Origin: Calothrix sp. C42_A2020_038
GTDB taxonomy: Bacteria; Cyanobacteriota; Cyanobacteriia; Cyanobacteriales; Nostocaceae
Assembly: GCA_015272395.1 (NCBI GenBank)
Contig: JACYLQ010000025.1
Location: forward strand, 1 to 40,919
DNA length: 40,919 nt
Reading direction: 5' to 3'
The notes beneath the pieces were generated by a model that did not search any database, was not told the origin of the DNA, and worked only from the letters and a program-made list of their open reading frames with translations. Within the stretch, counting starts at the first letter, position 1. Every line of letters begins with the position of its first letter. Both the position numbers and the translations under genes were made by a program. Of this stretch, positions 18,878 to 24,139 are shown piece by piece.

Positions 18878-19516
18878 CTAAGGATACACAGGAGAGCGAT
18901 CAATACCACCGACTTTATTGAGTGGCCAAAATCTCACCACTGCACGACCAATAATATTTTCGCGAGGGACTAAACCCCAACAACGCCCATCATAACTTTG
19001 AGCGCGGTTGTCACCAAGTACAAGATATTGTCCTTCTGGTATCGTTGTGGGTCTGGATAAAAATGGTGGTTGTGGACCGGATGTGCAAACTTCAACCGAT
19101 GTTTGTTGGTTTTCAGCTAAATATTTTTCCGTTAATTGCTTGCCATCAACGAAAACTCGACCTTCCCGAATCTCAATTTTTTCTCCAGGTAGACCAATCA
19201 CGCGCTTAATAAATGCATCTTGATATTCTTCTCTTTGTAGTTCTTTAGTAGGTGAAAATACTACAATGTCACCACGTTGTGGGTCAGAAAATCTATACTT
19301 TAATTTATCAACTATAATCTTGTCAGCTTCCCACTGATTGGGAGTGCCATGAAGCGTTGGTTCCATCGAACCAGAAGGAATCCAACGTGCTTCGGCAACG
19401 AAAGTACGAATCCCTAATGCAAGAACTACGCTTAGTATAACCGTTCTGCCTAGTTCTCCGATCCATGAATGGTCAGGTTGTTTGTTCGAGTTATTGTCAG
19501 ACACTTGATTCTGCAT
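18878..19516 (-). CDS. lepB: Signal peptidase I
   Basis: A membrane-bound serine protease that removes Sec and Tat signal peptides on the outer face of the cytoplasmic or thylakoid membrane. The 212-aa protein has one N-terminal membrane helix (about 24-41, LGRTVILSVVLALGIRTFVA). The catalytic Ser50 lies in PSGSMEPTL, and the general base Lys104 in DAFIKRVIGLPGEKIEI. The box E-like GDNRAQSYDGRCWG is also present. All elements are intact. It is divergent from pyrC, 234 bp away. Confidence 0.96.
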   Translation of the reverse strand: MQNQVSDNNSNKQPDHSWIGELGRTVILSVVLALGIRTFVAEARWIPSGSMEPTLHGTPNQWEADKIIVDKLKYRFSDPQRGDIVVFSPTKELQREEYQDAFIKRVIGLPGEKIEIREGRVFVDGKQLTEKYLAENQQTSVEVCTSGPQPPFLSRPTTIPEGQYLVLGDNRAQSYDGRCWGLVPRENIIGRAVVRFWPLNKVGGIDRSPVYP

Positions 19517-19750: not shown

Positions 19751-21088
19751 GTGAGTGCATTTAACTCTATGTCATCTCCTACTAGTTTACTGATTCGCCG
19801 CGCAAGCATCATCTTACCTAACGGGGAAATGATGGTTGGTGATGTTCTTACGCGCGATAGCACGATAGTTGAAATCTCGCCCCAAATTGAAGCGAACTCA
19901 CCGACTATGGAAATTGACGCAGAAGGGTTAACTTTGTTGCCTGGAGTTATCGACCCACAGGTTCACTTCCGCGAACCAGGACTTGAACATAAGGAAAACT
20001 TATTTACTGCTAGTTGTGCTTGTGCCAAAGGCGGAGTCACTTCATTTTTAGAGATGCCGAATACAAGACCTCTAACTACTAATCAACAGACTTTAGACGA
20101 CAAGTTGCAGCGTGCCTCCCAAAAGTGCTTGGTTAATTATGGCTTTTTTATTGGAGCAACATCAGATAATTTACCTGATTTACTTTCTTGTACCCCTACG
20201 TGTGGAATCAAGATTTTTATGGGGTCGATGCATGGTCAACTATTAATAAATAGTGAAGCCCTACTCGATCAAATATTTGCTACTGGTAAACGTCTAATTG
20301 CAGTTCACGCTGAAGATCAGGAACGTATCAACCAGCGGCGCCAAGAGTTTGCAGGTATTACTGATCCAGCAGTTCATTCACAAATCCAAGATAACCAAGC
20401 AGCACTTCTAGCAACACAACTAGCGTTAAAACTTTCTAAAAAGTATCAACGGCGGTTGCATATTTTGCATATGTCCACAGCAGAAGAAGCTGAATTGTTA
20501 CGTCATGACAAACCTAGTTGGGTTACAGCAGAAGTTACACCGCAGCACTTGCTTTTAGATACAAGCGCTTATGCAAAAATCGGTACGCTTGCACAAATGA
20601 ATCCTCCTTTACGCACACTCCACGATCGGGAAGTGTTATGGCAAGCATTGCACGATGGTGTCATCGATTTTATTGCTACCGACCATGCACCTCATACTTT
20701 AGAGGAAAAAGCTCAACAGTACCCGAATAGCCCTTCTGGAATGCCTGGAGTCGAAACTTCCTTGGCATTGATGTTAACCGCAGCGATGGAAGGAAAATGT
20801 ACTATTCATCAAGTTGTAAACTGGATGTCAACTGCTGTGGCCAAGTCTTATCAGATACCAAATAAAGGCGCAATAGCTGTAGGTTATGATGCCGACTTAA
20901 TTATCGTTGACTTAAAAAATTATCGTCCTGTACTGCGAGAAGAGTTATTTACAAAGTGTGGATGGAGTCCTTTTGAAGGTTGGAATTTAACTGGATGGGT
21001 ACAAACCACAATTGTTGGTGGTCAAATTGTCTATCACCAAGGCAAACTTTGTACTTATGTGCGTGGTAAAGCTTTGCAATTTGGATAA
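19751..21088 (+). CDS. pyrC: Dihydroorotase-like amidohydrolase
   Basis: Expected to close carbamoyl-aspartate to dihydroorotate in pyrimidine synthesis. The 445-aa protein has the amidohydrolase barrel: GVIDPQVHFREPGLEHKE (about 66-82), a lysine in GIKIFMGSMHG that would be carboxylated, HAEDQ, LHILHMSTAEEAEL, and the late aspartate in FIATDHAPHTLEEKA. The first zinc ligand of the usual HxH motif is glutamine here (Q70-V-H72). As far as I recall, the cyanobacterial proteins share this change, so it is probably not a recent mutation. The GTG start is preceded by AAGGGGA; a start at residue 7 is possible. Confidence 0.88.
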   Translation: MSAFNSMSSPTSLLIRRASIILPNGEMMVGDVLTRDSTIVEISPQIEANSPTMEIDAEGLTLLPGVIDPQVHFREPGLEHKENLFTASCACAKGGVTSFLEMPNTRPLTTNQQTLDDKLQRASQKCLVNYGFFIGATSDNLPDLLSCTPTCGIKIFMGSMHGQLLINSEALLDQIFATGKRLIAVHAEDQERINQRRQEFAGITDPAVHSQIQDNQAALLATQLALKLSKKYQRRLHILHMSTAEEAELLRHDKPSWVTAEVTPQHLLLDTSAYAKIGTLAQMNPPLRTLHDREVLWQALHDGVIDFIATDHAPHTLEEKAQQYPNSPSGMPGVETSLALMLTAAMEGKCTIHQVVNWMSTAVAKSYQIPNKGAIAVGYDADLIIVDLKNYRPVLREELFTKCGWSPFEGWNLTGWVQTTIVGGQIVYHQGKLCTYVRGKALQFG

Positions 21089-21168: not shown

Positions 21169-21757
21169 TCTATACTTCAACTTTCCAATTAATTAAAAAC
21201 TATTTTTGCGGTTTTTACTGACTGATAAATCTACTGATTCAAACAAAAAATACTTAGATATTCAATTATTTATGAAAAACAAAAATATTTAATGATTTAG
21301 ATACTTAAGCAAATAACTTTAAGTATTTTGTTTTTTTGACTTTACGGATAAATACTCAGGTTGAAAAAAAAACTCTATGTAAAGCTGATACAAAGTTCAA
21401 TTTTTTTTTGATCAATGTCAATGATAATAAAAAATTCACAACAGTTTTTCATTTCTTTATGCTTTTGGATAAAACATACATTTAATGCCAAATGGATACT
21501 TGGTTATATTAATCATGAACTAATGTATTAGGTAACTTGGATGACTTTTATTTCAGTCTTGTTCTGTCAGGTTAGTAATTTTTCAAAAAATAATCCCAAA
21601 ATTTCCGGTTGCTACAAAATCATGAGTGTAATAGCACAGAAGGCTTTTGCGAAGAAACTGAATGTCTGTTCCCTTCGTCTATAAAGCCTGTAATAATTTT
21701 ATTTTTTCAATAAATATTCGACTGATGAAACTATTAATTTAAATCGAGGAAAGAAAA
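21169..21757 (+). promoter_or_regulatory. Long AT-rich upstream region of the patS-like gene
   Basis: A region of 589 bp without a convincing ORF. TTCCGGTT (21603-21610) contains TCCGGT, close to the TCCGGA motif reported for heterocyst-specific (DIF-type) promoters of Anabaena. It is followed after 17 nt by TGTAAT (21627-21632), a plausible -10 box. Just downstream, AGGCTTT (21641-21647) plus GCGAAG can pair with CTTCGT plus AAAGCCT (21683-21689), giving a leader hairpin. A near-match to the NtcA box, GTA-N8-GAC, is at 21532-21545. All are inferences from motif similarity. Confidence 0.4.
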
Positions 21758-21850
21758 ATGATAGTATTATTTGACAGCGAAAGAGGTAGCGGTAGAGTTA
21801 AGGCATTAATATCTTTAGAGGATGACAGAGGTAGTGGTAGAATCAGTTAA
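21758..21850 (+). CDS. PatS-like heterocyst-inhibitor peptide with two RGSGR motifs
   Basis: A 30-aa ORF with a strong ribosome-binding site (GAGGAAAG, 21746-21753) and an ATG at 21758. Residues 1-13 read MIVLFDSERGSGR, which aligns without gaps to MLVNFCDERGSGR, the short form of Anabaena PatS (9 of 13 identical). Anabaena PatS stops there. This ORF continues with VKALIS and ends LEDDRGSGRIS, so a second RGSGR follows at residues 24-28. The second half (ALISLEDDRGSGR) looks like a duplicate of the first. In Anabaena, the ERGSGR or RGSGR peptide is made in developing heterocysts, moves to neighbours, and binds HetR to stop differentiation. Here two copies might be released by processing, or one might serve as an extended ligand (inference). 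It is convergent with the sigma-like gene 25 bp away. Confidence 0.82.
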   Translation: MIVLFDSERGSGRVKALISLEDDRGSGRIS

Positions 21851-21875: not shown

Positions 21876-22508
21876 TTATAAATAACCCTCATCTTGAGCG
21901 AATTGACGCAATTTCGGTATACACTGGCGTTGATAAAAACTACTTAAAGTCGAGACTGTTAAACCGTACTCGCTCGCTAACTCTCTCCAACTTACTTCTG
22001 GTGGTAAGCGTTTCAAGATTAACACCTGACAATTTACATCCGGTCGTCCTTGAATATGAGTTTGGCGCAAGTCCCCGCTCTTGTCACACTTCGCCCACAG
22101 TTTTACGTTTTCTAAAATTGGAGGAGTATCCGGAGGCGCCGCAATATTCTCAATAGGGTCGTATATTTCACTCTTGTCGCCCGAAGATAACTGTAATACA
22201 TTTGATGGTGCTTTTCTAATCTGATCTTCTTGTATTTTTAAATACAAATCTTGCAGCCTGTGCTTTAAGTATACATTCAGCCAAGTAATAACGGTTCCTC
22301 GGTCAGGGTCATAACCTTCACATATGTTACGGCAGAAATATAGCCAAGTTTGCTGCAAACCATCTTGATAATAAGAACTATTCTCCTTCCAAAGCTTGCC
22401 AGCAACTAAACGAATGATTTGCGTCAAAAGTCGTTGGCGTTGTGGACTTCCTGGTGGATGTCCACAAGCTTCTTCAACTAACCGACGTAATTCCTCCAGT
22501 TGACTCAT
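21876..22508 (-). CDS. Sigma-70-like transcription factor (cyanobacterial short type)
   Basis: A 210-aa protein with a sigma region 2-like N-terminal half (YYQDGLQQTWLYFCRNICEG, then YDPDRGTVITWLNVYLKHRL). A linker rich in D, P and S follows, and then a C-terminal helix-turn-helix resembling region 4 (ILKRLPPEVSWRELASEYGL, then TVSTLSSFYQRQCIPKLRQF). Nostocales have many such ECF-like genes, often next to DUF1822/CHAT genes; none are here. It could be a true sigma factor or a sigma-derived regulator. It converges on the patS-like gene. Confidence 0.75.
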   Translation of the reverse strand: MSQLEELRRLVEEACGHPPGSPQRQRLLTQIIRLVAGKLWKENSSYYQDGLQQTWLYFCRNICEGYDPDRGTVITWLNVYLKHRLQDLYLKIQEDQIRKAPSNVLQLSSGDKSEIYDPIENIAAPPDTPPILENVKLWAKCDKSGDLRQTHIQGRPDVNCQVLILKRLPPEVSWRELASEYGLTVSTLSSFYQRQCIPKLRQFAQDEGYL

Positions 22509-22911: not shown

Positions 22912-24139
22912 TCACTCTTTGAGCTTCCTCTTTCCCCGACTCGACTTACTTAGAGGAGTTTCCTCACCTAAGCAGAGGTCGATGTCTCCAGAGGCGTTTA
23001 ACGTTCCCATGTGCCCCACGGTACGAAGTGCAAGTTCCAAGATGTTGATAGCAGCGTTCCAGTCCCGGTCTAAAACAAACCCACATTGATGACAGCAATG
23101 TGTTCTTTGACTTAACGACTTCTTGACAACTTCCCCACAGTTAGAGCAGTTAGTACTGGTGTAGTGAGGTGGAACGGCAATCGTTGCCACCCCAAACACT
23201 TTGCCAAAATACTCCAACCAGTTGCGAAATGCCGACCAAGCCGCATCACTAATCGACAAGCGCCAGTTTCCGGTTCTTAACCATGTTCTGTACTTGCAAG
23301 TCCTCATAGGCAACCAAGTCGTTAGACTGGATAACGCACCTTGCCAACTTCACGGCAAAGTCTTTACGCTGCCTACTTACCTTCAAGTGCTTCCGACTTA
23401 AACGATTTCTCGCCTTGGCTCTATTCTTGGAACCTTTAGCTGTGCAAGAAAGTCTTTTGCTCAATCGTTTAAGTGCCTTTTCTGATTTCCTCAAGTGACA
23501 AGGGTTTTCTACGACCTGCCCGTTCGAGTCGGTGTAAAAATGTTTCAGTCCAACATCAAGACCCAGGGTCTTACCTGTTGGTTCTCGCTTCTCAATCCGT
23601 TCGACATCGAGACAAAACTGAACGTAATAGCCATCGGCACGACGAACAATCCGAACCCGCTTAATAGTCCCCGTCCTTAAGGACGGGGTCTTAATCAACT
23701 GGTAGAAATGCAAATCACGAGTTCCCCACAATTTGAAACTTCCAGCTTTAAACCCATCGGTGAAAGTGATAGAGCGTCTATCTTCAGACAGCTTCCAGCC
23801 ACAAGTTTTGTACTCAACACAACCATGTGTTTGGTACTTTTTAAAGCGTGGGAAACCTTTCTTCGCTACCTTCTTTTTACAGTTGTCGTAGAACCGAGCA
23901 ATAGCCGACCAAGCCCGTTCAGCAGAAGCTTGACGAGCCATCGAGTTGAGCTTGTTCGCCCAAGGGAACTCACGAGCAAGCACTTTACAATAAGCGCTCA
24001 GTTCATATCGCCCAATTCCCTTGTTATCCATCCAGTATCTGATGCAAGAATTGCGGACAAAACGCGCCGTACGAATGGCTTCATCAAGCCGCTCATACTG
24101 CTCGTTTGTTCCCTCAAGCTTTGCCTCAAATACCAGCAT
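22912..24139 (-). pseudogene. tnpB: RNA-guided endonuclease TnpB, frameshifted
   Basis: Two overlapping frames carry the two parts of one TnpB. The first (23249-24139) starts MLVFEAKLEGTNEQYERLDE, holds the RuvC-I aspartate in TLGLDVGLKHFYTDSNG and the RuvC-II glutamate in NDLVAYEDLQVQNMVKN, then stops after NRKLALVD. The second (22912-23313) takes up at LSISDAAWSAFRNWLEYFG, with a zinc ribbon (CSNCG ... CHQCG) and the RuvC-III aspartate in LDRDWNAAINIL. One extra base near 23252-23262 explains the break. All catalytic residues survive, so the damage is recent or the shift is tolerated. Programmed frameshifting is possible but unproven. Confidence 0.88.
23669..23688. repeat. Perfect 20-bp palindrome inside tnpB
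   Basis: CCCCGTCC-TTAA-GGACGGGG lies inside the reading frame, coding for PSLRTG within KTPSLRTGTIK. It resembles the element's own left-end hairpin (CCGTCCT-AGA-AGGACGG plus GGGC). The surrounding protein reads well without these residues, so it looks like an in-frame insertion of an end-type hairpin (inference). Confidence 0.7.

Follow-up and report, generated by a model that had tools for sequence, protein, structure and literature searches.

Downstream of the pyrC gene of Calothrix sp. C42_A2020_038 lies a very short open reading frame whose product carries the pentapeptide RGSGR twice. The locus raises the question of whether this frame is a genuine patS gene and, if so, how a precursor with two internal motifs could act on HetR. 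The analysis covered the whole stretch of 40,919 nucleotides (contig JACYLQ010000025.1, positions 1 to 40,919), referred to as the window. The window's genus is Calothrix/Dulcicalothrix, represented by seven genomes including that of the window. Papers are cited by their PMC numbers. The features of the locus are as follows.

18878..19516, minus strand: signal-peptidase-like gene, syntenic in nine tandem relatives
19751..21088, plus strand: pyrC (dihydroorotase), the syntenic upstream neighbour
21604..21609, plus strand: DIF1-like TCCGGT, a weak candidate, the published motif being TCCGGA
21628..21633, plus strand: TGTAAT, possible -10 region, invariant in 7/7 genomes of the genus
21746..21753, plus strand: putative ribosome-binding site GAGGAAAG; the 20 bases ahead of the ATG are 90% invariant across the seven genomes
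21758..21850, plus strand: tandem patS ORF of 30 aa with two RGSGR 15 aa apart, assigned by ORF reading, PatS model, conservation and simulation
21779..21796, plus strand: unit 1, ERGSGR codons, the same hexapeptide as Anabaena PatS-6, base-identical in 7/7 genomes of the genus
21824..21841, plus strand: unit 2, DRGSGR codons, with synonymous variation only in 7/7 genomes of the genus
21876..22508, minus strand: convergent sigma-70-like gene (TIGR02937, 18 bits against a cut-off of 42.9), adjoining patS in the window and in nine tandem relatives

The frame was first described in a sequence-only reading of the window. Its coordinates, its translation (MIVLFDSERGSGRVKALISLEDDRGSGRIS) and the GAGGAAAG upstream of it were all recovered when the sequence was read again. 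In six frames of the window RGSGR occurs exactly twice, at 21782 and 21827 on the plus strand, both times inside this ORF. Simulated windows with the same dinucleotide make-up (n=150) contained on average 0.053 RGSGR per window, and none of the 150 held an in-frame pair within 30 aa. The frame is short enough to have arisen by chance, but the simulated windows do not reproduce the pair, place and frame are the same in ten genomes, and the ribosome-binding site is conserved within the genus. A chance ORF was rejected on the conservation in relatives and the simulations, and is hardly conceivable. The ORF at 21758-21850 is real.

The assignment to PatS was approached through family models and gene order. 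All 13 positions of the NCBIfam PatS model align with residues 1-13 of the window peptide; the score of 23.7 bits (E 2.9e-5) is below the cut-off of 30, and two stretches of the peptide are matched. Four of the five relatives scanned scored 16.3-23.9 bits against the same cut-off and one 33.1 bits, the score of the NIES-4101 orthologue, in which three stretches are matched. The agreement with short PatS at 9 of 13 positions, claimed earlier, holds against the Anabaena-type MLVNFCDERGSGR in locus L065. The order of the signal-peptidase-like gene (which we take to be lepB from reading its sequence alone), pyrC, patS and the convergent sigma-like gene is shared by the window and nine tandem relatives, and one-motif patS likewise sits downstream of pyrC. 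The proposed orthology with PatS is thus supported by the place downstream of pyrC and by the model match, albeit one below the cut-off. Its place and sequence group the ORF with patS, but it departs from the classical definition, since both RGSGR motifs are internal and none is terminal. The observation that the peptide has no free C-terminal Arg is correct for the window, although it is not in itself a novelty: internal motifs are also found in HetN (PMC7761841, excerpt), in PatX and in six one-motif PatS.

The other known RGSGR proteins do not account for the ORF. The PatX model gives the window peptide 13.9 bits (cut-off 30), and only eight residues precede the first RGSGR, where PatX has a hydrophobic signal peptide. 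A misplaced PatX was rejected on this score and on the presence of a separate one-motif PatX in the window's genome. In two of the four scanned relatives below the PatS cut-off, L008 and L009, the PatX model scores above the PatS model, but on the motif alone and below the PatX cut-off. HetN is a dehydrogenase-like protein, whereas the window peptide has 30 aa and no match in Pfam. As for the neighbouring sigma-like gene, it lies beside patS only at nine tandem loci among 71 stretches downstream of pyrC. The reading of it as a dedicated patS partner is nevertheless weakened, because 175 of the 217 genomes of the window's family have a homologue. Farther downstream, at 22912-24139 on the minus strand, two overlapping ORFs could, on reading alone, be the halves of a single transposase-type gene interrupted by a frame change.

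The distribution of motif numbers was determined in 71 regions downstream of pyrC, a non-random sample of 60 regions chosen across genera and 11 others, out of 217 family genomes. A PatS ending at RGSGR was found in 32 regions, a single internal motif in six and a tandem gene in nine, while 24 contained no RGSGR frame under 200 aa. The six one-motif PatS with a tail after RGSGR (L066, L106, L110, L113, L119 and L125, from G198, G084, G086, G074, G079 and G082, respectively) show that not every PatS has a terminal Arg; the tail begins with Phe in five of them. Altogether, ten of the 217 genomes have a tandem patS. The sequence-only reading had made its case depend on conservation in close relatives, and the frame was kept in all six other genomes of the genus, each with two motifs 15 aa apart and 66-72% identity. 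A second genus of three genomes goes beyond two: there are three motifs in G029 and in G028 and four in G027, and every unit in this genus is DRGSGR. Among named genomes, nine of 44 candidate stretches were confirmed as tandem PatS, with two motifs in Calothrix NIES-4105, FI2-JRJ7, HK-06, PCC 7716 and PCC 7103 and in Dulcicalothrix desertica PCC 7102, three in Calothrix CSU_2_0 and Calothrix NIES-4101, and four in C. elsteri CCALA 953. The start-to-start spacing is 15 aa in all seven genomes of the window's genus, 14 in NIES-4101 and 14-15 across tandem PatS.

A profile built from the ten tandem peptides was run over the 217 family genomes and matched 29 of them at E 0.05 or better. The ten tandem genomes scored 7e-17 or better; beyond them a polyketide-synthase-like protein of G198 reached 1.7e-6 and the remainder 0.001 or weaker. 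In G198, an 1859-aa polyketide-synthase-like frame at L062:7975-13551 repeats a 15-aa unit four times, each with ERGTGRVN, a PatS-like motif, and a frame of similar length in G178 (L089) has one unit of this type. Frames of 146 and 135 aa (G033:C140:14982-15023 and G035:C1:501974-502015, respectively) match the profile at E 0.001-0.002. Two pyruvate:ferredoxin oxidoreductase-like proteins, at L064:6239-9952 (G162) and L018 (G157), carry two RGSGR 15 aa apart; the Pfam scan covered the former. Phage relatives were rejected: 17 pattern matches were obtained in viral contigs, and none of them was confirmed as a relative.

The history of the tandem motifs was followed on a gene tree of 72 PyrC proteins, computed by maximum likelihood and standing in for the species tree. 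The ten tandem genomes form one clade (97/97), within which the genus with two motifs (100/100) separates from the one with three to four (100/99). A single gain suffices to account for the tandem motifs. The earlier suggestion that a second copy had been gained is supported by this single clade and by the distribution (9/71 tandem), and the feature proves to be clade-wide, the copy number reaching four. One-motif PatS with an internal RGSGR (five were labelled on the tree, the sixth being G074) fall in the same half of the tree as the tandem clade (92/96). G038, with a PatS ending at RGSGR, is placed nearer the tandem clade than they are (91/81), so the tails after RGSGR may have arisen separately. 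In G027 and G029 two units are identical at 36/36 bases, which at the base level is a clear unit duplication within the three-to-four-motif genus. In the window's genus the RGSGR codons of the two units agree at 13-15 of 15 bases, and the 21 bases before RGSGR at 9-11, which falls under 5% against shuffled codons in one of the seven genomes. Whole-unit duplication is unproven for this genus, because the stretches before the motifs are hardly more alike than shuffled codons. We propose that an ancestor would have lost the stop after RGSGR and gained a second unit, consisting of a hydrophobic stretch, acidic residues, RGSGR and then Val or Ile, and that the sister genus would have continued to three and four units.

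Comparison of the first 29 codons in the seven genomes of the genus indicates which parts of the gene are held constant. Codons 8-14 (ERGSGRV) show no base variation, and in codons 22-29 (DDRGSGRI) all differences are synonymous and affect five codons. Amino acid changes occur in ten of the 29 codons (2-4, 7, 15 and 17-21), leaving both motifs, the preceding acidic residue and the following Val/Ile constant. The bases invariant in all seven genomes make up 90% of the 20 before the ATG and 74% of codons 1-29, compared with 53% of the stretch from DIF1 to TGTAAT, 46% of the leader and 42% of the sequence after the ORF. This pattern bears on whether both units matter. The base-invariant unit 1 is the only one identical to Anabaena PatS-6, and it might be the only active one, with the synonymously varying second unit a by-product or a back-up that adds nothing to the dose. 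We regard this as unlikely, as DDRGSGRI of unit 2 is equally constant in its amino acids in 7/7 genomes and the genus with three to four motifs has DRGSGR in all of its units. The six relatives have ATG at codon 18, from which an additional start could yield a second short PatS as a separate product. In the window this codon is ATA, and such an internal start is very improbable.

The promoter region is less uniform. At the DIF1 position the six relatives of the genus have TCCGGA in four cases, TCCGGG in one and TCCTGA in one, so that the exact motif is present in four of the seven genomes. In the second tandem genus DIF1 is absent within 260 bases. Exact TCCGGA lies within 520 bases of the motif at five of the 47 PatS loci scanned, the window not being counted among the 47. 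The combination of DIF1 and TAnnnT with 17-23 bases between was found at none of the nine tandem loci scanned and gave a single match, with TCCGGC, among all 47. NtcA sites of the form GTAN8TAC were absent from the 260 bases upstream of the ten tandem genes.

Proteins with several RGSGR motifs also occur outside the tandem clade. When the tandem profile was run over 388 genomes drawn from the order, 88 were matched at E 0.5, including secreted-looking multi-RGSGR proteins outside the window's family. Fifty PatX-type loci were then considered. Thirty were the best PatX matches, each of which has a single motif; the other 20 were selected because of their long frames or tandem matches. By motif pattern, 38 had one motif, three had none and nine had several: three in L213, L214, L216 and L231, four in L215 (G361) and L232, five in L217 (G316), 11 in L230 (G224) and 17 in L229 (G308). 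L074 has two copies, and in these ten multi-motif proteins the motifs are 11-54 aa apart. TCCGGA lies within 130 bases of the start in one of the ten genes. The PatX model matches the tandem gene itself in five of the ten; G308 and G224 match without a place being assigned, G267 matches at E 0.0998, and G412 and G333 show no match at E 0.1. In view of these weak or absent matches, the proteins of G267, G412 and G333 are RGSGR proteins with a hydrophobic start and not proven PatX. In G333 a hetR gene (76% over 299 aa) follows the four-motif gene on the same strand. Leptolyngbya has the same patX-hetR order, and the effects of its PatX appeared to be independent of HetR (PMC11298460, excerpt), which calls for caution in assuming HetR as the target in such lineages.

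HetR is present in all seven genomes of the window's genus. In a gap-free alignment to the solved HetR, the six residues that contact PatS-6, taken from the excerpt of PMC4649674 (R223, E253, E254, D256, D270 and D278), are kept in 7/7. Judged by these residues, this HetR should be able to bind the tandem PatS peptides. All seven genomes, the window's included, also encode a one-motif PatX (HRGSGRR). The PatS model revealed no clear further PatS in them; this negative is weak, because at whole-genome scale and E 1 the model fails to find five of the seven tandem genes.

We propose that patS of the Calothrix/Dulcicalothrix lineage probably encodes a tandem propeptide that is cut into two HetR-inhibiting hexapeptides per precursor. 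The precursor would be translated in the cytoplasm, being too short to accommodate a signal peptide. PatS is likely to be cut in the cytoplasm, and PatX is matured by the peptidase PatP (PMC12756182, excerpt). Cuts would flank each motif on both sides, so that unit 1 would release ERGSGR and unit 2 DRGSGR. The published work, as far as its excerpts go, favours a free hexapeptide. XRGSGR is the likely mature form, free hexapeptides bind HetR best, an N-terminal extension should hinder binding, and Arg223 of HetR is close to the free C-terminal carboxyl of PatS-6 (PMC4649674). The PatX hexapeptide binds HetR at 88 nM, while PatX without its signal sequence showed no interaction with HetR in two-hybrid tests (PMC12756182). 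Tandem PatS would on these grounds need cuts on both sides of the motif, including one after Arg. A terminal PatS does not need the latter. Each hexapeptide would bind the hood domain of HetR and free HetR from DNA; each being an inhibitor, one precursor would give two inhibitor molecules.

The peptide might instead remain uncut and bridge both lateral clefts of a HetR dimer with its two motifs at once. The constant 15-aa spacing in all seven genomes of the genus would suit such a bivalent ligand, and two PatS-6 peptides do sit on the lateral clefts of one dimer (PMC4649674, excerpt). The same complex, however, favours ends that are free on both sides, and the motifs lie 14 aa apart in NIES-4101 and 11-54 aa apart in PatX-type proteins. 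We therefore consider bridging improbable. The variable spacing in tandem PatS and PatX-type proteins suits cutting into hexapeptides.

The locus suggests that in the Calothrix-type lineage a heterocyst-spacing inhibitor is produced as several linked copies that need to be cut apart. Calothrix has terminal heterocysts, and a link between this feature and tandem PatS is a possibility. More tentatively, the HetR inhibitor may have evolved separately into a multi-copy precursor in several lineages, with two to four copies in cytoplasmic PatS and 2-17 in secreted PatX-type proteins. The copy number would then set the peptides per transcript and hence the strength or reach of neighbour suppression. 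If this wider reading is correct, a bacterial developmental morphogen would be produced from a tandem propeptide. PatS/HetR is among the foremost bacterial examples of activator-inhibitor patterning. The need for cuts on both sides of each unit would make the PatS protease a sharper target. The loci also offer a natural copy-number series, running from one to four at a single locus and reaching 17 among PatX-type proteins, in which the inhibitor copies per transcript differ; part of it is found in named strains (PCC 7102, 7103, 7716 and CCALA 953).

The survey of PatX by Elhai and Khudyakov from 2018, reportedly the main one, may already mention multi-motif proteins. Since it lies outside the literature covered, the priority of tandem PatS is unconfirmed. 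The literature searched held no paper that speaks of a repeated RGSGR, and papers matching longer forms of the motif were unrelated by title and abstract. Putative PatS-like proteins of 65-115 aa have been reported (PMC5812504), and no tandem precursor appears in the excerpts of that paper or of PMC7761841, PMC11298460, PMC12756182 and PMC7476756.

Among known systems, PatS of Anabaena and Nostoc (NCBIfam NF047415) is alike in its locus downstream of pyrC, its hydrophobic start, its acidic residue followed by RGSGR and its nature as a short cytoplasmic peptide. It differs in having one motif at the very C-terminus, whereas the two to four motifs of tandem PatS all lie internally. PatX (NCBIfam NF047413) shares the internal RGSGR, present in several copies in some lineages, but a signal peptide directs its secretion and PatP matures it (PMC12756182, excerpt). 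HetN likewise acts on HetR through an internal RGSGR (PMC7761841, excerpt), but is a dehydrogenase-like protein with one motif (PMC4133259, excerpt). A parallel in working is offered by the tandem pheromone propeptides of the RRNPPA systems (NprR, PlcR, Rap and AimR), in which one precursor carries several signal peptides, in up to six copies, and cuts are required on both sides (PMC9765709 and PMC11343458, excerpts). These propeptides belong to Bacillota, are secreted and have an unrelated receptor and peptide, so that the likeness to the proposed PatS precursor is one of operation and not of kinship.
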